A program made the translations under genes and the position numbers. Below the pieces are notes generated by a model, which was not told where the DNA came from, did no database searches, and was given only the letters and a program-made list of their open reading frames with translations. A stretch of 64,000 nucleotides of DNA from a virus, in IMG/VR virus record IMGVR_UViG_3300045135_002615, positions 1 to 64,000 of that record, one strand, 5' to 3'. Every line of letters begins with the position of its first letter. Positions within the stretch are counted from its first letter, which is position 1. This document shows positions 4,082-44,797 of this stretch, one piece after another.

Positions 4082-4885
4082 ATGAGCGGAACTAAGTACA
4101 ACTGGACATCTATTGAGAATGCGATTAAGAATGCGATTAAGCGAGAGGGGACGGACCCGACAGGGAGGGTGTTCATTTATGCAGACCTCCGTGGATTAGA
4201 CCTTAGTGGTCTTGACCTCAGCGGACTTGATCTCACCAAAGCTGACCTCAGAAAGGCTAAGCTCACAGGTGCGAACCTTGAGGGGACGGACCTCAGATGG
4301 GCTAACCTCAAGGGGGCGGATCTGAGCGGGGCTATCCTCACAGGGGCATCTCTCAGCGGGGTTAACCTCAGTGGGTTTAACCTCAGTGGGTTTAACCTAA
4401 CAGGTGCTAGTCTCTATAAAGCTAACCTCAAGGGTGCGAACCTGAAGGGTGCTGACCTCAGCGGGGCTTTCCTCGCGTGGGCTGAGCTCAAGGGGGCTGA
4501 TCTCACCAACGCTACCCTCACAGGTGCAGACCTAACTAAGGCGAAACTCAGAGGTCAAGACCTGAGTGGTCTTGACCTCAGTGGGGCTAACCTCAGATGG
4601 GCTAACATCAGAAAGGCTACTCTCATTGGTACTGACCTAACAGGTGCTATCCTTGAGGGGGCGTGGCTCACAGGGTCTAACTTCACGGGTGCTGACCTAA
4701 CAGGGGCTAACCTATCTAAGCTCAAAAGCTCATTCCTCAAAGAGACTAACTTCACGGGTGCGAACCTCAGTGGAGCGAACCTTACCAAATCTGACTTCAG
4801 CGGAGCTGACCTTACTGACGCTGACCTTACAGGTGCTGAGTTTAACAAGGTTGAAGAACCACTTCTTCTCTCTGATCTCTTATAA
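4082..4885 (+). CDS. Pentapeptide-repeat protein 1, 267 aa
   Basis: From about residue 30 to the C-terminus the protein is an almost uninterrupted run of A(D/N)LxX pentapeptides (for example ADLRK, ANLEG, ADLSG). These are diagnostic of a right-handed quadrilateral beta-helix. Known members of this fold include DNA-mimic gyrase inhibitors (MfpA, Qnr), but most phage members are uncharacterised. No membrane segment or fused catalytic domain is visible. It is one of five pentapeptide-repeat genes in the window. It is bounded by a TATAAATA box upstream and a strong terminator downstream, so it is probably monocistronic. The repeat codon pattern creates a long antisense ORF that I regard as spurious. 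Confidence 0.93.
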   Translation: MSGTKYNWTSIENAIKNAIKREGTDPTGRVFIYADLRGLDLSGLDLSGLDLTKADLRKAKLTGANLEGTDLRWANLKGADLSGAILTGASLSGVNLSGFNLSGFNLTGASLYKANLKGANLKGADLSGAFLAWAELKGADLTNATLTGADLTKAKLRGQDLSGLDLSGANLRWANIRKATLIGTDLTGAILEGAWLTGSNFTGADLTGANLSKLKSSFLKETNFTGANLSGANLTKSDFSGADLTDADLTGAEFNKVEEPLLLSDLL

Positions 4886-5515: not shown

Positions 5516-6019
5516 ATGGCTGTTGCCTTTAAACGTAATCAGATACTCACAAGAGGTGACCTCGACATCTTCCTCACTAACTCATCAGGGAATGTCGCTA
5601 ACGCCTCTAGTATCTCATACGCTCTATACTTCGTTGACCCTGGTCCACCCGAAACAGATGTACTCATCGGTGACCCCCAACGTATCCCCGAAAACCCATC
5701 TATCGGTGAATACTACGCATCCGTTCGTATCCCTACTACCGCTACCTATGGTCGCTATCGTATCCGATGGACCCTTAAAGAGTTTGTTAACTCAAACGCT
5801 CAGACCGTTGTCCAAGAGTTTGAAGTCGTCCCTGAGAACTCCGTGCTCGGTCCTGAGATGTCCAACGGCGAAAAACAAATGGTCTATAAGCTCCGTATGC
5901 TCCTAAGAGACCAATGCCTCGGTGGTGAGGAACAAATCACCATTGACGCTGATGGTGAAAAGATTACTCTCTCCATAGAGGAGCTATATGACATCATAGG
6001 GGAGACAGGCAATGCTTGA
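5516..6019 (+). CDS. Fractured virion-type protein, piece 1, with split intein half IntN1
   Basis: Residues 1-133 are the N-extein. Its beta-rich first part (about 1-105) resembles an Ig-like or tail-associated domain, and it ends in the helix MVYKLRMLLRDQ. Residues 134-167 are an N-terminal split-intein half that begins with Cys134 (CLGGEEQITI, block A) and then stops. The matching C-half opens the protein at 6110. After trans-splicing, the ending RDQ would join CPDKFYHFRPP. The leader hairpin hides its SD. It is the first cistron of a tightly overlapped operon running to 8453. The family name of the host protein is not certain to me. I recall its pieces resembling a continuous virion protein of other large phages, which would need a search to confirm. 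Confidence 0.9.
   Translation: MAVAFKRNQILTRGDLDIFLTNSSGNVANASSISYALYFVDPGPPETDVLIGDPQRIPENPSIGEYYASVRIPTTATYGRYRIRWTLKEFVNSNAQTVVQEFEVVPENSVLGPEMSNGEKQMVYKLRMLLRDQCLGGEEQITIDADGEKITLSIEELYDIIGETGNA
5915..6016 (+). other. Split intein N-half 1 (IntN1), 34 residues
   Basis: It starts with the Cys nucleophile at 5915-5917 in a CLGGEEQITI block A and is strongly acidic. It ends at the gene's stop codon. Its size and composition fit known short phage IntN pieces. The partner is IntC1 at 6110-6496. Confidence 0.88.
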
Positions 6020-6113
6020 AGGACTGCTAACTAAGTTTGAACTCACAAGAGAGCAACTAAATAAAAAAGGTCGAGTCTCTAAAGAGATTGTAGAAAAGGA
6101 GCTTGGTCTATGA
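6012..6113 (+). CDS. 33-aa ORF bridging pieces 1 and 2
   Basis: The ATG at 6012 lies within the last codons of piece 1, and its TGA overlaps the ATG of piece 2. Translation would therefore be coupled through the break. The predicted peptide (LLTKFELTREQL near the start, VSKEIVEKELGL at the end) looks like two helices and could be a helix-turn-helix remnant. At the second break the equivalent position holds a full endonuclease gene. The ORF may be a decayed homing gene or simply a coupling ORF. Expression is unproven. Confidence 0.5.
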   Translation: MLEGLLTKFELTREQLNKKGRVSKEIVEKELGL

Positions 6114-6496
6114 CATCTCAAGAGAAAACACAGAAGATCAAAGATGCCTTCCAAAAAGGAAAACTCACCATCAAATCTATGGACTCTCAAGGTGAGTTCT
6201 CTTGGAAGCAAATCTCTAAAGCACACAAGAACCCGACACCAGTTGAACCCATATATAAAATCACCACTGAGCAAGGGAAGCAACTCATAGTCACAGGAGG
6301 GCATCGTGTGTATATGAGCCCTAACCTCTGTGTCCCCGCTGAAGATCTCTCTGTCGGTCTTAGCCTACAGACAACACAAGGCTTAACTAAGGTCTCCCAT
6401 ATCGAGGTCATACAAAACAGACCCTTTATGTTCGACCTGACCGTAGAGGATAACCATAACCTTGTACTAGAAGGTTCTGATGTGGTCGTACACAAC
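6110..6496 (+). other. Split intein C-half 1 (IntC1), 129 residues
   Basis: It carries block B (TGGH), block F and the invariant C-terminal His-Asn, followed by the Cys +1 nucleophile of the extein. There is no endonuclease domain. It should pair with IntN1 at 5915-6016. Confidence 0.9.
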
Positions 6497-6880
6497 TGCC
6501 CTGATAAGTTTTACCATTTCAGACCTCCCGAGCATGAATCCAACATCGGATCATACAATCAAGTCTTCGGTCAAGTATGGGAAGATGCCGAGTTCCTTGA
6601 GTACCTTGAGAGAGCACTCGATTGGTGGAACCTCCAACCTCCCGAAACTGAGAACCTCTCAAATATGGATCAACTCATCTCTCAAAAGCCCGCATGGAGA
6701 ACTCCCATCCTTCAAGGTGCTATTCAGTTCGCTGCTATGGCTCTACAAGCAAATTGGATCGTGGACGAATTCTCGGTTAGGGGGGATACCGACTTAGAGG
6801 TATTACTCCCTAGTGGGGAGAAGGTTAAGCTCACGATTGAAGAACTTCATGAGATTATAAAAGAGGAGGGTGAGGAGTAA
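6110..6880 (+). CDS. Fractured virion-type protein, piece 2: IntC1, middle extein, IntN2
   Basis: Residues 1-129 are a C-terminal split-intein half. It has a basic helix, a block B TxxH motif (VTGGH, about 61-65), a block F region (FMFDLTVEDNHNLVL, 106-120) and the terminal HN before Cys130. Residues 130-221 are the middle extein (CPDKFYHFRPP to NWIVDEF), helical and Trp-rich. Residues 222-256 are a second N-half starting with Ser222 (SVRGDTDLEV), with the same IEEL(Y/H)(D/E)II motif as IntN1. One polypeptide thus carries IntC at its front and IntN at its back. The stop overlaps the next ATG by 1 nt. Confidence 0.92.
   Translation: MTSQEKTQKIKDAFQKGKLTIKSMDSQGEFSWKQISKAHKNPTPVEPIYKITTEQGKQLIVTGGHRVYMSPNLCVPAEDLSVGLSLQTTQGLTKVSHIEVIQNRPFMFDLTVEDNHNLVLEGSDVVVHNCPDKFYHFRPPEHESNIGSYNQVFGQVWEDAEFLEYLERALDWWNLQPPETENLSNMDQLISQKPAWRTPILQGAIQFAAMALQANWIVDEFSVRGDTDLEVLLPSGEKVKLTIEELHEIIKEEGEE
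6773..6877 (+). other. Split intein N-half 2 (IntN2), 35 residues, Ser-1 nucleophile
   Basis: The half begins at the TCG codon at 6773 as SVRGDTDLEV, so residue 1 is Ser rather than Cys, and it ends with an acidic tail. The TIEELHEII motif matches the SIEELYDII of IntN1. The partner is IntC2 at 7827-8231, whose +1 residue is also Ser. Confidence 0.87.
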
Positions 6881-7827
6881 TGTTGAAGCAAAGACACCTC
6901 ATAATGAAATACGGGTTTAACCAAAGGCACTTAAAGAGTTTGATTGAGGAGGGTATCCTTAAGACCTTGCCCACAGAGGGCAAACGTAAAGTACCCCTCA
7001 TAGACCCTGAAAGTTTTGAAAGTCTTTTAGAAGGGGTACACTACCTCTCATGTAAGGAGTGTGGGTCGAGGGTTGCTCAAGTGTCACCAATGCACTTGAA
7101 ATCTTGTTCAGGCTTGTCTTTAGACTCCTACTTTAAGAAGCACACGGATGCTCCATACATGTGTGAGTTCACAAAGAAGAACAAGAAGAAGTCAGAGGAG
7201 CAAAAGATAAGACAGTCCGAAACCCTCAAGGCAAGGTTCAAGACCCCTGAAGGCGAGATCACCCGAAGGCAGATTAGTGAAGCAAGTATAAAAATGCAAC
7301 AGAGTGAGGTGGGAGATCGCATCAAAGATGCTCTTAGAGAAAATAACAAAAACCCTATCTCTCTCGCTAAAAAGAGCAAAAAGTCTAAAGCAATGTGGGC
7401 TACCAAGTCCCATCAAGAAAAGATAAAAAAGTGGCACAAGGATAACCGAGATCAAGTCCTTGAAAGCTGTAAGTACGCAAGAGAACACATCTCCCACACT
7501 TACACAAAACCGCACCATACTTTGAAACAGATGCTTGTTTCAGAGGGTATCGAGACTTTGACTGAACATAGCGTTTCTCACTACCATATAGATGAAGCCA
7601 TACCTTCTCTCAAAATCGCTATAGAGGTTGATGGGTGTTATTGGCATGGGTGCGATGCCTGTGGGTTTACCCCCACAAAAAGAATCGCAGGGAATGATAA
7701 AGCCAAAAACACAAACCTATCTAAGCTAGGGTGGGCTGTGCTTAGGTTAAAAGAACACGAGGTCTATGGTGACCCTGACTCTTGTCTTGAAAGAATAAAA
7801 AACCTAATCCAGCAAAGGAGCGTATGA
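6880..7827 (+). CDS. Free-standing Vsr-like (EDxHD-type) homing endonuclease inside the gene break
   Basis: The N-terminus (1-50) looks like a DNA-binding helical module. A zinc finger follows (C58, C61, H72, C76) with a conserved SLDSYF trailer. A long lysine-rich helical linker spans about 95-200. The catalytic domain at about 205-310 has HIDEAIP (D238), AIEVDGCYWHGC (E249, D251, H256) and GWAVLRLKEHEV, as in very-short-patch-repair-like nucleases. Endonucleases of this class are known between halves of genes split by split inteins. The gene overlaps its upstream neighbour by 1 nt and its downstream neighbour by 4 nt. It probably spreads the fractured arrangement by homing. Confidence 0.88.
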   Translation: MLKQRHLIMKYGFNQRHLKSLIEEGILKTLPTEGKRKVPLIDPESFESLLEGVHYLSCKECGSRVAQVSPMHLKSCSGLSLDSYFKKHTDAPYMCEFTKKNKKKSEEQKIRQSETLKARFKTPEGEITRRQISEASIKMQQSEVGDRIKDALRENNKNPISLAKKSKKSKAMWATKSHQEKIKKWHKDNRDQVLESCKYAREHISHTYTKPHHTLKQMLVSEGIETLTEHSVSHYHIDEAIPSLKIAIEVDGCYWHGCDACGFTPTKRIAGNDKAKNTNLSKLGWAVLRLKEHEVYGDPDSCLERIKNLIQQRSV

Positions 7828-8231
7828 TGGACAACTCGACCAAACAAGCAATCAAGCAGGCTTTCTTACAAGGGGAGCTTAAAGTTCTCTCCGTAGATAA
7901 CGACACCAACCAAGTAGACTACCAAGTCATCTCGGATGTGATGAAGCATCATACTCCACATAAGAGAATACTTCGAGTAGAACTCGATAATGGTCAGTTC
8001 GTCATCGCTACCCAAGACCACTCCCTATTCACTATCGAAGAGGGTAAAATCAAAGCCATTGAAACAGATCAGTTTTCTGTTGGAGATACTCTCGCTATCG
8101 TTGAAGACGGTCAAGTCAAAGGGTGTCTTATCACTAACATCTCTCAAGAGGATGACTGCGAACACACTTATGACCTCTGTGTGCCTAGGAACGAAAACTT
8201 TGTGCTTGCTAACGGAATACTAGCCCACAAC
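7827..8231 (+). other. Split intein C-half 2 (IntC2), 135 residues
   Basis: It has block B TQDH and block F with LCVPRNENFVL, and ends GILAHN before Ser +1 at 8232. It pairs with the Ser-1 IntN2. No endonuclease insertion is present. Confidence 0.88.
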
Positions 8232-8453
8232 TCGTATTCGATAGGTGGTATCAGCTTAGACTTAGACCGCTCCTCTAAGTATGAGTCTCTAAAGTCCACC
8301 GCTGAGTCCATGTGGTCTCAATCCGTTGAAGCAAAAGCACGCACTACCAAGTTTATGCGAGGTCTAAGGCAACCTAAATATGGTGTCGGTATTCGCAGTA
8401 GTTTTGGTCCTGCGGTTGGGCGAGGCGTTCTTTCACCGAGAAACTTTCTTTGA
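7827..8453 (+). CDS. Fractured virion-type protein, piece 3: IntC2 plus C-extein
   Basis: I chose the ATG at 7827, which lies 6 nt after the SD AAAGGAG; an ATG at 7824 is also possible. Residues 1-135 are IntC2, with TQDH (block B), EHTYDLCVPRNENFVL (block F) and the ending AHN. Residues 136-208 are the C-extein, starting SYSIGGISLDLDRSSKYESL and ending in a Gly/Arg-rich tail (GVGIRSSFGPAVGRG). Joining pieces 1, 2 and 3 would give a protein of 133 + 92 + 73 = 298 residues. The tail composition fits a structural protein. Confidence 0.9.
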   Translation: MDNSTKQAIKQAFLQGELKVLSVDNDTNQVDYQVISDVMKHHTPHKRILRVELDNGQFVIATQDHSLFTIEEGKIKAIETDQFSVGDTLAIVEDGQVKGCLITNISQEDDCEHTYDLCVPRNENFVLANGILAHNSYSIGGISLDLDRSSKYESLKSTAESMWSQSVEAKARTTKFMRGLRQPKYGVGIRSSFGPAVGRGVLSPRNFL

Positions 8454-8494
8454 TTTTTAGGGGTTTATCTTTGTAGAGACTCCGAAAAAAGTGC

Positions 8495-8524
8495 TTGACA
8501 TGCAAGTAAAGATTGGGGTATGTA
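8495..8524 (+). promoter_or_regulatory. Sigma70-like promoter
   Basis: TTGACA (8495-8500), an 18-nt spacer and TATGTA (8519-8524) precede the small zinc-finger ORF by 29 nt. It is one of the few places in the window with a consensus -35 hexamer. Confidence 0.5.
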
Positions 8525-8553
8525 TCTGAACTCAACCAAGAGAAAGGATACAT

Positions 8554-8724
8554 ATGTCAACTCATTGCCCTGCGTGTAAGAAGCAGGTGAGCCCAAAGGG
8601 GCTGCCAGGTCATATAAAAAAGTGCTCTCTATGGGACACCAAGATTGGGGTCCCATCATCAGAGTTCAACTTTGATGAATACTTCCAAAGGGGTTTGTAT
8701 GAGCCTCAAGGGTGCTACTTTTGA
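8554..8724 (+). CDS. 56-aa zinc-finger protein, likely homing-endonuclease fragment
   Basis: The peptide has CPACKK and a GHIKKC motif (C-x2-C ... H-x3-C), followed by FNFDEYF. The same order (C-x2-C, HLKSC, SLDSYF) occurs at residues 58-85 of the endonuclease at 6880. The rest of such a nuclease is absent, so this is either a stand-alone finger or a truncated homing gene. The ATG has SD GAAAGGA. The 3' end overlaps the pentapeptide gene starting at 8699 by 26 nt in another frame. Confidence 0.7.
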   Translation: MSTHCPACKKQVSPKGLPGHIKKCSLWDTKIGVPSSEFNFDEYFQRGLYEPQGCYF

Positions 8725-9634
8725 GGGTTGTCTTCTTGATGAGGTATTCTTCCACGAGTGTGACTCCTCATCACTTGAGGGTGTGGCCTTTGAGGGTTGT
8801 ACTTTGGGTGGTTACTTTGAGAAGTTCGAGGAGGCTACTTTCGTAGACTGCGAGGATGAGGACTACGAGGAAGACGAGGATGAGGTGGAAGTTGAGGACT
8901 TTCACGTTGACCTCTCGGAGTATGACATCTCGGAGTATGACATCTCGGAGATTGACCTCATCAAATTCATCGCTCAGCTCAAGGCGGAGCATGCCCCCGA
9001 AGCCCTACAGCTCACGGGGGCTGACCTCAGCGGTGCTGACCTCAGCGGAGCTGACCTCAGCGAGGTGGAGTTCTTCTCTGAGATTGACCTCACAGGGGCT
9101 AACCTCAGCGGTGCGAACCTCACTGATGCGTTCTTCGATGGGGTGAACCTCCGCGAGGCTGACCTCAGCGGTGCAAACCTCACGGGGGCGATCATCACGC
9201 CCGCCTCGCTCAAGCTCGCTAACCTCACAGGGGCTAACCTCAGCGGTGCTTGTCTCGGAGGCGACCTCTCAGGATCTAACCTCAGCGGTGCGACCTTGAC
9301 GGGGGCAGAGCTGATCGGTGCAACCCTGAAGGGTGCTGACCTCAGCGGTGCTGACCTGACGGGTGCGAACCTGAGCGGTGCGGACCTGACGGGTGCGGAC
9401 CTCTCAGGGGCTAAGCTCACAGGTGCTAAGCTCACTGAGGCTAACCTTGAGGGTGCTAACCTTGAGGGTGCTGACCTCACGGGGACTGACCTCACCCTCA
9501 CCAAGCTCGCTTATGGGGACTTGAGAGGGGTGACCCTCAAGGGTGCAGTCTTCGCCAACACCGACCTCACCAACGCCGACCTTGATGGTGTGAAACTCAC
9601 CAAGACCCAAATCAAGGCGGCGACCAAATCATAA
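8699..9634 (+). CDS. Pentapeptide-repeat protein 2, 311 aa, with acidic insert
   Basis: I chose the ATG at 8699 because AAGGGG lies 6 nt upstream and inside the preceding ORF; in-frame starts at 8675 (ATG) and 8645 (TTG) lack this. Residues 1-50 are degenerate repeats of the GATFEGC type. An acidic linker follows (about 53-95; DEDYEEDEDE, then SEYDIS repeats). From about residue 105 to the end runs a long regular A(D/N)LSG beta-helix. An 88-nt segment (8769-8856) is nearly identical to one in the next pentapeptide gene. The fold is secure; the target is unknown. Confidence 0.9.
   Translation: MSLKGATFEGCLLDEVFFHECDSSSLEGVAFEGCTLGGYFEKFEEATFVDCEDEDYEEDEDEVEVEDFHVDLSEYDISEYDISEIDLIKFIAQLKAEHAPEALQLTGADLSGADLSGADLSEVEFFSEIDLTGANLSGANLTDAFFDGVNLREADLSGANLTGAIITPASLKLANLTGANLSGACLGGDLSGSNLSGATLTGAELIGATLKGADLSGADLTGANLSGADLTGADLSGAKLTGAKLTEANLEGANLEGADLTGTDLTLTKLAYGDLRGVTLKGAVFANTDLTNADLDGVKLTKTQIKAATKS
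8769..8856 (+). repeat. 88-bp direct repeat, copy 1
   Basis: It matches 10351-10438 with three mismatches by my reading and encodes the same repeat-to-acidic-tail junction in both pentapeptide genes. It indicates duplication or gene conversion between neighbours. Confidence 0.85.
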
Positions 9635-9743
9635 AGCCACCACGAGATGGCTAACCTAAACGATTAAACACACACTTCATCACAGCCACCACGAGATGGC
9701 TAATCCTTAGAAGTGTAGAGCTCCTCGAAGTGTAGAGCTCCTC
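9635..9743 (+). repeat. Two kinds of short direct repeat in the intergenic region
   Basis: AGCCACCACGAGATGGCTAA occurs at 9635-9654 and 9684-9703; each copy can fold as AGCCA/TGGCT. AAGTGTAGAGCTCCTC occurs at 9711-9726 and 9728-9743, separated by one base. The remainder of the 238-nt gap to the next gene holds a terminator and a promoter-like box. Confidence 0.8.
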
Positions 9744-9749
9744 AATGTC

Positions 9750-9800
9750 AAAAGAGCCCGACTGACCTATCAAATGGTTGGTCGGGCTCTTTTTTTTTTT
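9750..9800 (+). terminator. Intrinsic terminator (loop orientation 1)
   Basis: GAGCCCGAC and GTCGGGCTC form the stem, extended inside by TGACC and GGTTG, followed by more than ten T. The loop reads TATCAAAT. The terminator at 10512 has the same stem with the complementary loop. Confidence 0.92.
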
Positions 9801-9817
9801 ACCTCCCCCCCCACCTC

Positions 9818-9831
9818 CTATTCATATAAGT
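9818..9831 (+). promoter_or_regulatory. CTATTCATATAAGT promoter-like box
   Basis: This 14-mer lies about 41 nt upstream of the ATG at 9873. The identical 14-mer is found at 12274-12287, and related TCATATAA boxes at 17666 and 24657. The repetition in front of separate genes suggests a phage-specific promoter class without a -35 box. Confidence 0.55.
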
Positions 9832-9872
9832 GATTAACGACAACAACGATAACTACCTACTAAGGAAAAGAA

Positions 9873-10496
9873 ATGTCAGACAAGAAGATTATAGATTTTG
9901 ATGAGTATGAGTGGAACTACGGCGACGATACCGTAAACTACGAAGGTCATGCTTTTTGGTTAAAGTTTGATGGTGACCTGACAGGTCACACCCTCACAGG
10001 GGCAACCATTGAGGGCACCCTCTTCAAGGGTGCGGATCTCAGGGGGGCAACCATTAAGGTAGAGGCTCTCACAGAGAGCCTCTTTGTGGATTGCAACCTT
10101 GAGGGTGCAACCCTCTCGGCAACTAATCGAGGCGTGAACCGCGTAGTCTGGACGGGCTGCAACCTTCGTGGTGCAACCATCAAGAACACCTGGCTTGATG
10201 GGGTATGCTTAAGGAACTGCGACCTTCGTGATGTAACATTCGAGGGCTGCTTATTTGATGTATATAATACTGTCCTTCTTCAAGATTGCAACCTGCAAGG
10301 TGCAACCTTTAAGGATTGCTCCTTGAGCTCTGATTTCGTTCTTCATGGGACATCACTTGAGGGTGTAACCTTTGAGGGTTGTACTTTGGGTGGTTACTTT
10401 GAGAAGTTCGAGGAGGCTACTTTCGTGGACTGCGAGGACAGGACTACGAGGACTACGAGGACTACGAGGATGACGAGGACTAAGAACCTCACCTAG
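9873..10496 (+). CDS. Pentapeptide-repeat protein 3, 207 aa, Cys-rich type with frameshifted tail
   Basis: Residues 30-175 contain degenerate pentapeptides of the pattern (D/N)CNLxGATFKDC, with Cys at regular intervals; this is a looser beta-helix than proteins 1 and 2. The C-terminal segment TFEGCTLGGYFEKFEEATF is shared with protein 2. The reading frame then runs through a GAC-TAC-GAG repeat in the wrong register, giving a basic RTTRTTRTTR tail. One extra base would give an acidic EDYEDYEDYEDDED tail ending at 10483. SD AAGGAAAAG precedes the ATG. A CATATAA box lies upstream and a terminator downstream. Confidence 0.87.
   Translation: MSDKKIIDFDEYEWNYGDDTVNYEGHAFWLKFDGDLTGHTLTGATIEGTLFKGADLRGATIKVEALTESLFVDCNLEGATLSATNRGVNRVVWTGCNLRGATIKNTWLDGVCLRNCDLRDVTFEGCLFDVYNTVLLQDCNLQGATFKDCSLSSDFVLHGTSLEGVTFEGCTLGGYFEKFEEATFVDCEDRTTRTTRTTRMTRTKNLT
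10351..10438 (+). repeat. 88-bp direct repeat, copy 2
   Basis: Copy of 8769-8856 with three mismatches. The sequence just after it is where the two genes diverge and where the frame changes. Confidence 0.85.
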
Positions 10497-10511
10497 ATAG
10501 AGACCCTCAAT

Positions 10512-10559
10512 AAAAGAGCCCGACTGACCATTTGATAGGTCAGTCGGGCTCTTTTTTTT
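10512..10559 (+). terminator. Intrinsic terminator (loop orientation 2)
   Basis: Same GAGCCCGAC/GTCGGGCTC stem as at 9750 with a perfect TGACC/GGTCA extension, then eight T. The loop reads ATTTGATA, the reverse complement of the loop at 9750. Confidence 0.92.
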
Positions 10560-10579
10560 ATCTAAAAGTGTCCTTAACT

Positions 10580-11038
10580 TCAAGTAAGGTCTAGACCTGC
10601 CTCTAACCATGAGAGGTCAAGTGTCCATTGATGCTGAGACCTCTCCTCCCACTTACTAAAGACACTCTCGATGTAGAGCTCTAACTGTAAAGGGTGCTTG
10701 AACTCGTTGAGTACAGCTATCTTGTTAAGCACTTGCTCCTGAACCTCAGGTGACTCTACAGAGAGTGTCCTCCCTAGATGCTTTGCCTTATGGCAGGTGG
10801 GGCATAAAGAGATCAACCCCTTGAGGGTCTGTGTCTTTGTCCCATCATCATAATGCCATATCTCATGACACTCTACGGGGTGTGTGGGACCTTTTTCGGA
10901 GCATATCTCGCATCGGTATTGAGCGTTTCGATATGACTGCCTCCGTAATGTGTCCCATCTCTCTTTAGAGAGGTTGGCTTCAGTGCGTAGGTTGTTGCCC
11001 CATGACGTTGAAGGGACAAGTTCAATAGTGAGTTTCAT
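10580..11038 (-). CDS. HNH endonuclease, 152 aa
   Basis: The protein has a zinc-binding HNH core: CEIC at 43-46, VECHEIW at 55-61 with catalytic-type His58, then LISLCPTCHKAKHLG at 75-89 carrying C79 and C82. Stand-alone HNH proteins of this size are common mobile or nicking endonucleases in phages. It is on the opposite strand from its neighbours and sits between two pentapeptide genes, which is typical of a mobile gene. A near-palindromic inverted repeat (11063-11117) overlies its promoter region. No intron signature was seen around it. Confidence 0.9.
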   Translation of the reverse strand: MKLTIELVPSTSWGNNLRTEANLSKERWDTLRRQSYRNAQYRCEICSEKGPTHPVECHEIWHYDDGTKTQTLKGLISLCPTCHKAKHLGRTLSVESPEVQEQVLNKIAVLNEFKHPLQLELYIESVFSKWEERSQHQWTLDLSWLEAGLDLT

Positions 11039-11141: not shown

Positions 11142-12248
11142 ATGAGACTAACAAAGATAGATACATGGGTAGACGAGCCAATCAATACAGACCATCCCTT
11201 ACTGATCTCTAGTGTTGATTGGGCTCACACAGAGCTTGTAGATCGTGTGAATATCCCACTTGGCTCTAATGTCCAAGTGGGGTGCTCTTCTTCAGAGGAG
11301 TTGGACATTGAGGTGTGGCTAGAAGAAGCCGTTACCGAGGTCACCCGACAGACCTCAGTAGAAGGTATGGGTACTAGGACTTATCTTGAGCAAGAGACAC
11401 AGATCAAAGTGTTGGGTACAACGATCAGATCAATTTCCCCTCGCCCTATTAGGGTCAAGAACCTTGATGATGACAAGCAGTACCTCCTAGTGACTTCAGA
11501 TCACTTTAAGATCATAGAGATAGAGGGGGCATCCCTCACACTTGAGGAACAAGTAAAGCTGTACAGGGTGACACACGGACTGAGTAAGGATTTGCAAGGT
11601 ATTAGCTTGTCTAACTGCAAGGTCCCCTTTGACCTTAGCGGGTGCGACTTGAGCGGTAGTTCATTTGATCAAGTGGACTTCTTAGGTGATCTAAGGGGAG
11701 CTAATCTATCAGGGACACACCTCACATATTGTGATTTAAAAGGGTTGAACATTGAAGGGGCTGACTTCAGCAACAGCACCCTTAATAGCGTTGACTTCTC
11801 CTGCTCTAGCTTAAAGGGTTCAACCTTTTTAGACGCGGATCTTGATAGCCCCCTCTTTGTAACGTGTTCACTTGAGGGGGTGGACTTCACAAAAGCCAGT
11901 TTTAATGGTGGTGACTTTACTTGTGCTCTTTGTGAGGGGGTGGACTTTAGTGGTCTTGAGTATAGTTATGACGAGAGCTTGTCTGATTGTCTCAACGGCT
12001 ATCTTAATGACCCTAGGCTCTTGTTTAGTTGGGCGGATTTGAGGCGGGCTAAGTTTGATGGGTTGTCTTTGAACCATGCTCAGTTTAATGGTGCTACCTT
12101 GACGGGGGCAACATTTAAGGATTGTGATCTTAGTTCATCAGAAGACGACTACAGAGATGGTCGTTATGAATACTATTCAGAGGGCACGAACTTCAAGGGT
12201 GCAGAGCTAGGTCTAAAATTAAGGGTCACTTTAAGGGCTTATTTATAA
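11142..12248 (+). CDS. Pentapeptide-repeat protein 4 with N-terminal domain, 368 aa
   Basis: The first 150 residues are a non-repeat alpha/beta region that I do not recognise; it contains a VLGTTIRSISPRP strand pair and a LLVTSDHFKI motif. From about 160 to 350 there are degenerate pentapeptides (GCDLSGSSF, GADFSNSTL, GATLTGATF) with an acidic insertion near 275-295. The end (LGLKLRVTLRAYL) breaks the pattern and may reflect a late frameshift. A fused N-domain distinguishes it from the other four repeat proteins. Function unknown. Confidence 0.85.
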   Translation: MRLTKIDTWVDEPINTDHPLLISSVDWAHTELVDRVNIPLGSNVQVGCSSSEELDIEVWLEEAVTEVTRQTSVEGMGTRTYLEQETQIKVLGTTIRSISPRPIRVKNLDDDKQYLLVTSDHFKIIEIEGASLTLEEQVKLYRVTHGLSKDLQGISLSNCKVPFDLSGCDLSGSSFDQVDFLGDLRGANLSGTHLTYCDLKGLNIEGADFSNSTLNSVDFSCSSLKGSTFLDADLDSPLFVTCSLEGVDFTKASFNGGDFTCALCEGVDFSGLEYSYDESLSDCLNGYLNDPRLLFSWADLRRAKFDGLSLNHAQFNGATLTGATFKDCDLSSSEDDYRDGRYEYYSEGTNFKGAELGLKLRVTLRAYL

Positions 12249-18231: not shown

Positions 18232-18888
18232 ATGTTTAATCTCTTTAACTACAGCAAGAGGGATCTCACCGCCGCCATTGCGGGGGTCAAAGCACTCACG
18301 GGTGCTAAGCTTCGTAATGCCCCACTAGGTGCGGTTGATCTCTCTTATGCAGATCTCTCTTATGCAGACCTAAGAGGAGCTGATCTCACAGGTGCGAACC
18401 TAACAGGTGCTAAGCTCACAATGGCTAGGCTCAAAGGAGCTGACCTCACGGGTGCTGACCTCACAGGGACTACTTTGAGTATGGTGAGAGCCCCTCAAGC
18501 GAACTTCACGGGGGCGTATGCTCCTTTGAGTGATCCTGCTCTCTTTAATGGTGCGGAGCTAACAGGAGCTATCTTTGAGAGGGCTCTTTTGGACTCATCA
18601 CTCTTTAAGAGTGCCATTCTAAAGGATGTAAACTTTACTGAAGCCTCTCTCATCGAGGCGAACTTCAAGAAGGCAGAGTGTAAGGGGACAGACTTTGTAT
18701 ACGCCAACATGGAGCGTGTGAAGTTTGACTCGGCAGAGCTGACAGATGTGAGCTTCATCTCTGCGAACTTGAGTTATGCCGACTTTGAGGATGCCACCTT
18801 GACAGAGGTGGACTTCAGAGAGGCTACGACAACTAGAATTCGATTATTAGACGCGGTTATGTCCCGCATTGAGACAGACGAGGCGTAA
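18232..18888 (+). CDS. Pentapeptide-repeat protein 5, 218 aa
   Basis: After a short N-terminal helix (1-20), repeats of the A(D/N)LxX form run to the end (for example ADLRG, ANLTG, ANFKK, ADFED), making a compact right-handed beta-helix. Phe replaces Leu at many central positions in the second half. It is translated directly after a 17-bp hairpin. It is followed 6 nt later by a small membrane protein gene, so the two are probably cotranscribed and may work together. Target unknown. Confidence 0.9.
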   Translation: MFNLFNYSKRDLTAAIAGVKALTGAKLRNAPLGAVDLSYADLSYADLRGADLTGANLTGAKLTMARLKGADLTGADLTGTTLSMVRAPQANFTGAYAPLSDPALFNGAELTGAIFERALLDSSLFKSAILKDVNFTEASLIEANFKKAECKGTDFVYANMERVKFDSAELTDVSFISANLSYADFEDATLTEVDFREATTTRIRLLDAVMSRIETDEA

Positions 18889-41896: not shown

Positions 41897-44797
41897 ATGA
41901 GTGAAGAAAAACTATTGAAGACAATTGAACGACTAAGAGAGATCAGGGCTAAAGAGGACTTGAACCCACCTCCCTCAAAAATCTTGAGGTCACATCTCCC
42001 TAATGGGGTAGAACTGAAGCTACGTCAGTATCAGATACAGGGTATCTTACACTTGATCGCCATGCCACGCTTTGTTTTGGGAGACGACACTGGGTTGGGG
42101 AAGTGCGTTACGGGAGACACCCTCATCTCTACAGATAAGGGGTTACTCCCAATTGCTTCTTTAAATCCTGGAGTGTCTGAACCTGACACATTCGTCCCTT
42201 TTGATGGCGATGCTCAAGTTGTTGTGAGAGGCGAAACCCGTAGGATAAGAAGCTTCTACTATGGTGGGCTTAAGCCTACAGTTAAGATCCGCACCCGCAG
42301 AGGATATGAGATTGAAGGGTCTCACATCCACCCCTTACTTGTTAGGGGTGAAGATGGCTCTGAGGATTGGGTGAAGATGTCTGATCTTAAAGAGGGCGAC
42401 ACCCTTTGTTTAAATCGAAGCTCTTATGTAAGTGAGTGCCACACAGTTAAACTCGTCCAAATACCTCAAGGACAACCTGGTGAAAAAAAATATCGTGTAC
42501 CACAGGTGCTTGATAGCAGACTAGCACGACTCTTTGGGTACCTTGTTTCTGAGGGTTGGTTCAACCATGACTATCATTTCAACGTGGCACAATGCTTGGA
42601 GAAGAACCCCGAAGTCTGTCGTGACATTGAGGACTGTTTTACGGCACTCTCTGACTATAAACCTAGATATGCAGATGGTGTCTACTCTATATCAAGCAGT
42701 TACCTCATACGCTTTTTAGAGGCACAAGGATTGACTAAAGGAGTCGCTAAAGATAAGGCGGTGCCTTTTTGTGTGTTAAGGGCAAACCCTTCTCTCCAAG
42801 CAGAGTTTTTAAAAGCCCTGTTTGAGGCTGAGGGACATGTATCTCAAGAGACGATTGAGATCAGTTCCGCTTCATCGACACTCCTAAAGCAAGTTCAAAC
42901 TATGCTTCTTAGCTTTGGGGTGCTCTCTACGAGAAGGGAAAAATATGTCAAAGGATACGACCACACATATTGGAGGCTAACCATTACGGGAGCGGACACT
43001 AAGTGCTTCATGTCTCAAATTGGTATGGTTAGCTCTCGTAAGATAGAGGCTCTTAAAAACATATGTTCTAAGATAGGTGGTAACACCAATCTAGATACTG
43101 TACCTCACACGAAGGAGCTATTTGAGAGGTATCGGCTCAAAGTCGCACACCCTACAAAACATGGCAACTCTTTTGTAGGGACTCTTGGTCATATCAGAGC
43201 AGAGAGACGCAATCCGAGCTACGACTTCATTCGCAAATGTGTCCGTGACATTCATGTTGACGGAGAACTTCAGGACATTCTAGCTAACAACTACTTCTAT
43301 GACCCGATTGTGGAGGTCACCTATGGTGAGGCAGAGGTTTTCGACATTGAGGTCGATCACCCAGAGCACTCATTTGTTGGGAACGGATTCGTATGTCACA
43401 ACACATTGCAGTCCATCGCAGCCCTCTCATATATTTGGGATAAGAACCCATCTATCCCCGCTCTCATCTGCACAACAAAGTCCGCCGTAGGGCAATGGGA
43501 ATCCGAGTTCGATAAGTTCACTCATGGGGTCAAGGTCTTTAAATGCCTCGGCACTAAAAAGAAGCGTGAAAAGATCCATAACGAGTTCAACCTCGCTGAA
43601 GGTCCAAAAGTGATCATCATGGGATACCGCACCGCTGTGCAAGACTTCCAATACATTCAACACATGGTAGGGCATGTTGTCATCTTTGATGAAGCTACCG
43701 CTTTTAAAAATGACACCTCTCAAGTCCATCAGGTGTGTAAGCACATGGCAGGGTCTGCCGAGCGTGTATGGTCTCTATCTGCGACCATCATCAAGAATAG
43801 GCTCATGGAAGCATGGGCTATCTACAAAGTCACAGTCCCTCACTTATTTGGTGCAAAGACACACTTCATGCGTGAGTATTGCATCACCCGTGATCAAACT
43901 ATACCTGGCTCTCGCCGCCGTATTCAGATTGTGGTGGGTCACAGGAAGCGTGACATCCAAGCCTTCCGTGAGCACATTGATGCTTATTTCTTAGGTCGCC
44001 CTAAACATGAGGTTGCTCAAGAGCTACCACCTCTCACAACTAAGATCATTGAATGTGAACTCTCTAAGGCTCAGAAGAACAAGTATGCAGAAGCCCTTCA
44101 AGGGTTACTTGAGTACCTAGACCCTGAGACAGGGGAGCTTGCCGAGCGTGAAGTAAGTAAGCTCACCGCAGTCACCGTCTGCCAACAGATTGTGAACCAC
44201 CCCGCCCTTGTAGATTGTGAGGGAGATAGCGGGAAGCTCGATACCCTCTTAGACTTGGTGACTAATGAACTTGAAGGTGAGAAGGTGATTGTGTTCTCTC
44301 GCTTCAGGGGTATGGTTGACATCTTAGAGGCGGAGCTCAATGGTAAGGGTATTCAGACCTGTCGTATCACGGGAGCTGAGTCGGGTGATGAGCGTTTAGC
44401 CTCTCAGAAGGCGTTTCAAGACCCTGAGAGTGAGACAAAGGTATGCCTCATCACAATGGCTGCCGCAGAGGGTGTAAATCTACAACTCGCTAAGGCGGTT
44501 ATCTTTTATGATACCCCTTGGTCAGCAGGAGACTACCTTCAAATCGTAGGTCGTATGATCCGTATTGGGTCTATCCATGACAAGGTGTTCAGCTATCACA
44601 TCTGTGCCCCTAAGACCATTGATGATAGAGTGATGAAAACCCTCAAAGCTAAGATGGGTCTTATCGAAGCGGTACTCGGTAAGAGGCTAAAGGAAGATGG
44701 TGAGTCAGACGCTATCGTAGAGGTAGGTCAATCTGAGCTGGCGGACATCTTTGACGGGCTTCTTGAGGATGCCCAAGAGATCATTAAGGTGAAGTGA
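41897..44797 (+). CDS. SNF2-type DNA helicase/ATPase precursor with in-frame intein, 966 aa
   Basis: The extein is 533 residues. Motif Q/I region LRQYQIQGI...DDTGLGK (residues 43-69) continues after the intein with TLQSIAALSYIW. Motif II is VIFDEATAFKN, motif III SLSATIIKN, and the C-terminal lobe has VIVFSRFRGMVDIL, MAAAEGVNLQLA and QIVGRMIRIGS (motif VI). This is a compact SNF2-like ATPase such as phages use in replication or recombination. The protein is inactive until splicing because the Walker A loop is interrupted after GK. SD AAGGAG. A bidirectional-looking terminator follows. Confidence 0.92.
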   Translation: MSEEKLLKTIERLREIRAKEDLNPPPSKILRSHLPNGVELKLRQYQIQGILHLIAMPRFVLGDDTGLGKCVTGDTLISTDKGLLPIASLNPGVSEPDTFVPFDGDAQVVVRGETRRIRSFYYGGLKPTVKIRTRRGYEIEGSHIHPLLVRGEDGSEDWVKMSDLKEGDTLCLNRSSYVSECHTVKLVQIPQGQPGEKKYRVPQVLDSRLARLFGYLVSEGWFNHDYHFNVAQCLEKNPEVCRDIEDCFTALSDYKPRYADGVYSISSSYLIRFLEAQGLTKGVAKDKAVPFCVLRANPSLQAEFLKALFEAEGHVSQETIEISSASSTLLKQVQTMLLSFGVLSTRREKYVKGYDHTYWRLTITGADTKCFMSQIGMVSSRKIEALKNICSKIGGNTNLDTVPHTKELFERYRLKVAHPTKHGNSFVGTLGHIRAERRNPSYDFIRKCVRDIHVDGELQDILANNYFYDPIVEVTYGEAEVFDIEVDHPEHSFVGNGFVCHNTLQSIAALSYIWDKNPSIPALICTTKSAVGQWESEFDKFTHGVKVFKCLGTKKKREKIHNEFNLAEGPKVIIMGYRTAVQDFQYIQHMVGHVVIFDEATAFKNDTSQVHQVCKHMAGSAERVWSLSATIIKNRLMEAWAIYKVTVPHLFGAKTHFMREYCITRDQTIPGSRRRIQIVVGHRKRDIQAFREHIDAYFLGRPKHEVAQELPPLTTKIIECELSKAQKNKYAEALQGLLEYLDPETGELAEREVSKLTAVTVCQQIVNHPALVDCEGDSGKLDTLLDLVTNELEGEKVIVFSRFRGMVDILEAELNGKGIQTCRITGAESGDERLASQKAFQDPESETKVCLITMAAAEGVNLQLAKAVIFYDTPWSAGDYLQIVGRMIRIGSIHDKVFSYHICAPKTIDDRVMKTLKAKMGLIEAVLGKRLKEDGESDAIVEVGQSELADIFDGLLEDAQEIIKVK
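42104..43402 (+). mobile_element. LAGLIDADG intein, 433 residues, in the Walker A site
   Basis: It starts with Cys (CVTGDTLISTDKG, block A) and ends GFVCHN with Thr as the +1 residue. Block B is GSHIHPLL. The two endonuclease dodecapeptides are RLFGYLVSEGWF and FLKALFEAEGHV. Block F is VFDIEVDHPEHSFVGNGF. The inserted site is between GLGK and TLQSI, the nucleotide-binding loop, a classic intein position. The intein appears intact for both splicing and homing. Confidence 0.95.

Follow-up and report, generated by a model that had tools for sequence, protein, structure and literature searches.

A phage gene in three pieces: two putative split inteins in a likely head-tail connector

Fractured genes and the present locus

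Fractured genes that combine split inteins with Vsr-type endonucleases are already known (Dassa et al. 2009, cited in PMC12350094 and PMC7090010). Here we describe a gene at positions 5516-8453 of a 64,000-base window (bases 1-64000 of the 296,642-base IMG/VR virus record IMGVR_UViG_3300045135_002615) that appears to be broken in three by two split inteins. The original fractured genes of Dassa et al. 2009 (NAR 37:2560) are said to encode enzymes that synthesise or repair DNA, with one break per gene. Like them, the present gene is a conserved phage gene with a split intein and a free-standing endonuclease cistron between the N-terminal (IntN) and C-terminal (IntC) intein fragments, and the endonuclease at the second of its two insertion sites is Vsr-related. 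It differs in being broken in three and in probably encoding a virion protein, whereas the original set reportedly comprises two-piece genes for DNA enzymes; the two-piece break and the DNA-enzyme host describe that set and are not a requirement of the mechanism. Further differences are a TnsA-like endonuclease at site 1, replaced by an HNH enzyme in one relative, and the occurrence of the same sites in contiguous, endonuclease-free and empty states, with empty site-1 alleles that lack a nucleophile at +1, the residue following the intein.

Atypically split inteins are likewise known, such as the natural AceL-TerL, with an IntN of 25 residues (PMC11766414, PMC12707363). The inteins reported here share with them a short IntN, a long IntC and a split near the N terminus. 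IntN is mostly about 30 to at least 35 residues here, as against about 15-25 residues in PMC12707363, and one gene holds two natural pairs, Cys1/Cys+1 and Ser1/Ser+1. Cysteine-less split inteins and engineered three-segment tandem trans-splicing have also been reported (PMC12707363). Site 2, with Ser1 and Ser or Thr at +1, resembles the former, and two pairs would join three segments as in the latter, but here the arrangement is natural. The haloarchaeal mcm a and d inteins are two neighbouring contiguous inteins in one gene (PMC10643990). They too occupy two sites, each with its own endonuclease, and occur in single, double and empty alleles; unlike ours, they are contiguous with built-in endonucleases. 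The +1 residue at MCM-d is serine or proline, whereas in the present gene empty alleles never have a nucleophile there at site 1 and seldom have one at site 2. A literature search of limited coverage returned no natural gene broken in three by two split inteins, no TnsA-like intein endonuclease, and no report of split and contiguous alleles coexisting at two sites.

The locus would represent a natural case, in a phage structural gene, of tandem trans-splicing with three segments. How split inteins arise and what becomes of them can be tested directly here, since empty, split (with or without endonuclease) and contiguous alleles occur side by side at two sites in related phages. Of practical interest is a matched pair of Cys-type and Ser-type split inteins with short IntN fragments, presumably evolved to work side by side.

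The three pieces and their unbroken homologues

We consider it very probable that two atypically split inteins have entered one phage gene, likely for a connector, at two codons, and that the resulting pieces trans-splice into one protein. This reading is drawn from sequence, namely from the anatomy of the gene, its unbroken homologues, the +1 switch, mobility, purifying selection and endonuclease deletion. Three intein-bearing pieces lie on the + strand, with an endonuclease between pieces 2 and 3; ORF denotes an open reading frame.

5516-5914, + strand: extein E1, 133 residues (mature residues 1-133), aligned in the unbroken homologues
5915-6016, + strand: IntN1, 34 residues, Cys1, CLGGEEQITIDADGEKITLSIEELYDIIGETGNA; ORF stop at 6017-6019
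6012-6113, + strand: micro-ORF of 33 codons between E1-IntN1 and IntC1-E2-IntN2, compared below with the site-1 endonuclease (HEN1) of relatives L037 and L032
6110-6496, + strand: IntC1, 129 residues, block B TGGH, C-terminal VVHN
6497-6772, + strand: extein E2, 92 residues (residues 134-225); Cys+1 replaces the Asn of unbroken homologues
6773-6877, + strand: IntN2, 35 residues, Ser1, cysteine-free, SVRGDTDLEVLLPSGEKVKLTIEELHEIIKEEGEE; ORF stop at 6878-6880
6880-7827, + strand: HEN2, 315 residues, free-standing endonuclease of the Vsr/DUF559/MTES_1575 type with a zinc-finger-like N-terminal region
7815-7819, + strand: AGGAG, Shine-Dalgarno-like, 4 nt upstream of the IntC2 start; also the microhomology used in the IntN2-IntC2 fusion of L037
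7824-8231, + strand: IntC2, 136 residues, block B TQDH, C-terminal LAHN
8232-8453, + strand: extein E3, 73 residues (residues 226-298) plus stop, with codons to 8450

Together E1, E2 and E3 amount to 298 residues. The coordinates, piece lengths and junction residues given in an initial annotation of the window were correct to the residue, and the five overlapping cistrons that it described are confirmed: E1-IntN1, whose stop ends at 6019, the micro-ORF (6012-6113), IntC1-E2-IntN2 (6110-6880), HEN2 (6880-7827) and IntC2-E3 (from 7824). Start and stop codons overlap along all five. The first base of HEN2 (6880) is also the final base of the stop before it, and the IntC2 start at 7824 falls within the HEN2 stop region. 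Most split alleles of related loci (designated by L numbers) show such overlaps, with the downstream start located within the upstream ORF or its stop.

The Intein_splicing model PF14890 scores above its cut-off in piece 2 (3.4e-11) and piece 3 (8.5e-16). IntC1 is 86-88% identical in L037 and L032, IntC2 is 82-96% identical in L030, L037 and L040, and the IntN2 protein is 100% identical in L040 and, over 32 residues, in L037. The window gene pairs Cys1 with Cys+1 at site 1 and Ser1 with Ser+1 at site 2. The aligned intein examples keep the terminal nucleophile, TxxH and Asn, and all 48 inteins examined begin with Cys or Ser, end with Asn and are followed by Cys, Ser or Thr. The last two residues are HN at site 2 and HN or mostly SN at site 1.

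The unbroken homologue that the initial annotation proposed to look for exists. The joined exteins match more than 20 IMG/VR contigs, including L003-L023, as an uninterrupted ORF aligned over residues 1-298, across both junctions, with 70-86% identity overall and 72-86% for L003-L023, and most unbroken 298-residue homologues align there without gaps. A wider scan confirmed 328 relatives, the best 80 of which were listed. Within the 296,642-base record no second full copy of the gene was found, so the phage can make the protein from the three pieces only. The possibility of a hidden, intact copy was considered and rejected, the record holding just an N-terminal beta-domain paralogue (genome 176205-176507, - strand) with 31% identity to extein residues 1-102; a pseudogene reading was likewise rejected. 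E1-like domains also occur upstream of the gene in L054, L057, L058, L299 and L300.

The product is likely a head-tail connector. Of 74 homologues, 15 match PHROG 17327, 'head-tail connector' (best 6.5e-6), although the window's own extein matches no PHROGs family, and a homologue in Tunturiibacter phage Tunturi_5 carries the same annotation. An AlphaFold model built on a single unbroken homologue had a predicted local distance difference test score (pLDDT) of 33 and was discarded. The model used, with 73 aligned unbroken homologues, reached a pLDDT of 76 and a predicted template modelling (TM) score of 0.51. It contains an N-terminal beta domain and a C-terminal helical part, with E1 forming a beta-rich domain plus one helix. 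Phage G gp165 is its best interpretable fold match, with E 2.7e-8 and a TM of 0.71 on the target; an extein profile search of PDB gave no match, and a PDB fold search with the model gave nothing at E < 0.001. The PHROG 17327, Tunturi_5 and gp165 results support the earlier proposal of a virion-type product. In a GTDB genome scan just three relatives appeared, all in metagenome-assembled bins, one of them occupied at site 1 with HEN1.

The +1 codon and the movement of the cassettes

All loci collected reduce to 138 distinct extein genotypes, in which site 1 is occupied in 20 and site 2 in 28; both sites are empty in 98, site 2 alone is filled in 20, site 1 alone in 12, and both in 8. Single breaks at exactly these two points recur in many other phages, which, together with the unbroken homologues, puts the structure well outside what chance would produce. 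Alleles that are split with an endonuclease at both sites simultaneously were found in L055, L057 and L162, while the endonuclease is gone or mostly gone from split alleles in the window (site 1), L170 (both sites), L248 and L167. Contiguous, one-frame inteins occupy site 1 in L036 and L228 and site 2 in L037, L165, L171, L174, L175 and L180. In L060 the endonuclease is fused in frame with IntC2-E3, and in L181 an HNH enzyme (PF01844, 1.6e-9) stands in place of the usual site-1 endonuclease. A near-isogenic trio with nearly identical extein proteins, L171, L177 and L202, is occupied at both sites, at site 2 only and at neither, respectively. The double break is one member of a mobile-element series that also includes contiguous (cis) inteins at each of the two sites, something the initial annotation had not seen. 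Every double-broken sequence comes from metagenome assembly, and an assembly or frameshift artefact was considered. Its chance is negligible: the structures recur in records with different metagenome identifiers (L027/L040, L030/L031, L032/L033, L037/L038), they recur at two sites, and they include full-length endonuclease cistrons and stop/start overlaps. Recurrence across separate IMG/VR records largely refutes the artefact, which was rejected.

The +1 residue follows intein presence, as judged from 129 deduplicated rows. At site 1, all 19 occupied alleles have Cys or Ser, whereas the 110 empty ones, mostly with Asn, never have Cys, Ser or Thr (Fisher 4e-23); all 14 phylogenetically independent pairs agree (sign test p 1e-4). 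At site 2, all 27 occupied alleles have Ser or Thr, as do 15 of the 102 empty ones (Fisher 2e-17), with about 15 of 18 independent pairs in agreement and none opposite. Asp is the commonest residue at this position in unbroken homologues, and Ser+1 of E3 replaces it in the window. From this pattern the intein appears to overwrite the host codon with the nucleophile it needs, so that the +1 nucleophile seems to move along with the cassette. If an intein were lost precisely, its nucleophile should remain at the site, yet no empty site-1 allele has Cys or Ser, which argues that these alleles were mostly never invaded. An intein that brings its own essential +1 residue, as these data suggest, would not need an insertion site that already encodes Cys, Ser or Thr.

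Occupancy is scattered over the extein tree as if random. The 19 occupied site-1 rows require 18 changes (mean with shuffled labels, 18.0) and the 27 occupied site-2 rows require 24 (mean, 24.9). On the intein tree, the site-1 and site-2 inteins form two separate clades with a single change between them. The site-1 cassettes of L037 and L032 are about 96% identical, with synonymous divergence (dS) of 0.05-0.13, whereas the exteins are saturated at silent sites. In 60-base windows the exteins share 41-49 of 60 bases, about 75%, and the cassette mostly 55-60 of 60, for identities mostly of 95-100%; the rise in identity begins at the splice junctions, with one diverged block within HEN1. Between the window and L040 at site 2, dS is 0.40 for HEN2 and 0.21 for IntC2, as against 1.2 to saturation in the exteins, evidently the same transfer pattern but less recent. 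This contrast between cassette and extein is the pattern of homing by double-strand-break repair. The ratio of nonsynonymous to synonymous divergence (dN/dS) is 0.05-0.12 for the intein parts in nearly all comparisons, and 0.05-0.10 for IntN1 against L037 and L032, which implies that the intein parts are kept functional.

The endonucleases at the two sites are unrelated. HEN2 matches PF18741 (1.3e-9), PF04480 (9.7e-8) and PF03852 (6.1e-7), includes a Vsr-related catalytic domain, and matches phrog_13076 (endonuclease) and phrog_3339 (homing endonuclease). Its relatives with 37-91% identity all occur at site 2 of the same gene, and isolate phages gave weak matches only. HEN1 is TnsA-like, with PF08722 over its cut-off in L037 (2.3e-8) and weaker, below cut-off, in L055 and L057. 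Close relatives of HEN1 and HEN2 were found only at these two sites of this gene.

A mechanism may be proposed in which two strictly conserved codons are the insertion points, and each cassette consists of IntN, an endonuclease cistron (TnsA-like at site 1, Vsr/DUF559-like at site 2) and IntC. The endonuclease would cut an empty allele at the insertion codon, and repair from an occupied allele would copy the whole cassette together with the +1 codon, overwriting usually Asn with Cys or Ser at site 1 and usually Asp with Ser or Thr at site 2. The insert would break the gene, while the overlapping stop and start codons would keep the pieces translationally coupled and made in the same place. E1-IntN1, IntC1-E2-IntN2 and IntC2-E3 would then associate pairwise and trans-splice twice to yield the 298-residue protein, and the cassette would survive because its products trans-splice. 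The cutting, the splicing reaction, the specificity of pairing and the order of events, if any, are what we infer here.

Unbroken homologues, the +1 switch, purifying selection on the parts and recurrence of both breaks support the initial proposal that a single 298-residue protein arises from three polypeptides through two split inteins. That proposal also held the two trans-splicing events to be ordered; the two-intein part stands, and no order is supported.

Several points weigh against the mechanism as drawn. The census was enriched for occupied alleles, at which the searches were partly aimed, and its counts are not prevalences. Ser or Thr is already present in 15 of the 102 empty site-2 alleles, so that the +1 switch is absolute at site 1 only. 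IntN1 and IntN2 are similar enough that they may cross-pair, which would lead to skipping or cyclisation of E2. Finally, endonuclease cutting is argued from family membership and from the pattern of gene conversion only.

Splicing might instead have been lost, with the three polypeptides persisting as separate subunits that assemble non-covalently. In the window the site-1 endonuclease is deleted, so the element is partly decayed, and the N- and C-terminal domains of the predicted fold are separable. Such subunits are nevertheless very improbable given that both breaks adjoin near-invariant extein residues, that the intein parts are under strong purifying selection with nucleophile, TxxH and Asn kept, and that the +1 nucleophile follows intein presence at site 1 with no exception. 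Moreover, in-frame contiguous versions exist at both sites, where an unspliced insert would add about 150-190 residues. Slightly less remote, though still improbable, is the recruitment of the split inteins as regulators whose slow or conditional splicing makes the connector appear late in assembly. Conditional splicing is known for inteins generally (PMC6195587), and the split state outlasts endonuclease loss in the window (site 1), L170 and L248; yet the near-random scatter of occupancy, with many relatives lacking both inteins, is what selfish elements should show, rather than a control that is maintained.

Endonuclease loss, re-fusion and neighbouring genes

HEN1 is intact in L037, L032, L055 and L057, and the window retains only its two ends. 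The micro-ORF at 6012-6113, whose nature lay beyond the initial annotation, consists of the opening 29 codons of HEN1, with the second Met of the L037 enzyme as codon 1, and its last 4 codons, and is the remnant of the deleted endonuclease. The ends are joined at a 6-bp GAAAAG repeat, in an in-frame deletion of about 770 bp that keeps both start/stop overlaps. Site 1 of the window has evidently lost its TnsA-like endonuclease by in-frame deletion between these 6-bp repeats; it would now hold a permanently split intein incapable of independent homing, while site 2 remains a complete cassette.

At site 2 of L037, IntN2 and IntC2 are joined at AGGAG, a sequence with which both IntN2 and the endonuclease gene end. 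The fused intein, which matches PF14890 at 7e-23, still carries the old IntC start codons and the tail of the endonuclease gene. In the intein tree L037 belongs to a clade of four with full support, in which the other three are split, and contiguous L171 is sister to split L177. For two of the eight contiguous forms, L037 and L171, descent from a split form is the best reading, more firmly so in L037. The reverse history would have contiguous inteins ancestral at each site, with endonuclease insertion breaking them afterwards. Split inteins are usually explained in this way (PMC7765530), and the eight contiguous forms are scattered over the intein tree. We regard this history as unlikely here, although less so than the readings dismissed above, because the L037 intein still holds the old IntC starts and the endonuclease gene end at its AGGAG joint, and because of the nesting of L037 among split forms and the pairing of L171 with split L177. 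Breaking may nonetheless have come earlier, as the first step.

We lean towards the view that the mobile unit is the fractured cassette with its own +1 codon, and that fracture is reversible and has been so independently at the two sites. A split, endonuclease-bearing form would invade, writing Cys or Ser over the Asn or Asp codon. Microhomology deletion would then remove the endonuclease. What is left would be an intein that stays split for good (window site 1) or a contiguous mini-intein formed by re-fusion (site 2 of L037 and probably L171). If true, at least some natural inteins have gone from split to contiguous, against the usual order.

Other inteins occur in this genome and in its relatives. 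A SNF2-type helicase at 41897-44797 of the window has a contiguous LAGLIDADG-endonuclease intein, as does the large subunit of ribonucleotide reductase at about 192434-195031 of the same genome (L069 469-3066). In L057 a downstream gene (8353-10968) has its own contiguous intein, LAGLIDADG-looking by eye, which brings L057 to three inteins within about 7 kb.

Just downstream of E3 in the window, a 56-codon ORF (8554-8724) matches, with 55% identity over 49 residues, the beginning of a 772-residue DUF7487 protein of L052, which is encoded at the same place (7629-9947). The ORF is probably the remnant of a third, free-standing nuclease gene. Genes for pentapeptide-repeat proteins surround the broken gene (window 4082-4885, 8645-9634, 9873-10496, 11142-12248 and 18232-18888). 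Those at 8645-9634 and 9873-10496 have a nearly identical stretch, SLEGV.FEGCTLGGYFEKFEEATFVDCED, in common, which suggests a recent duplication.

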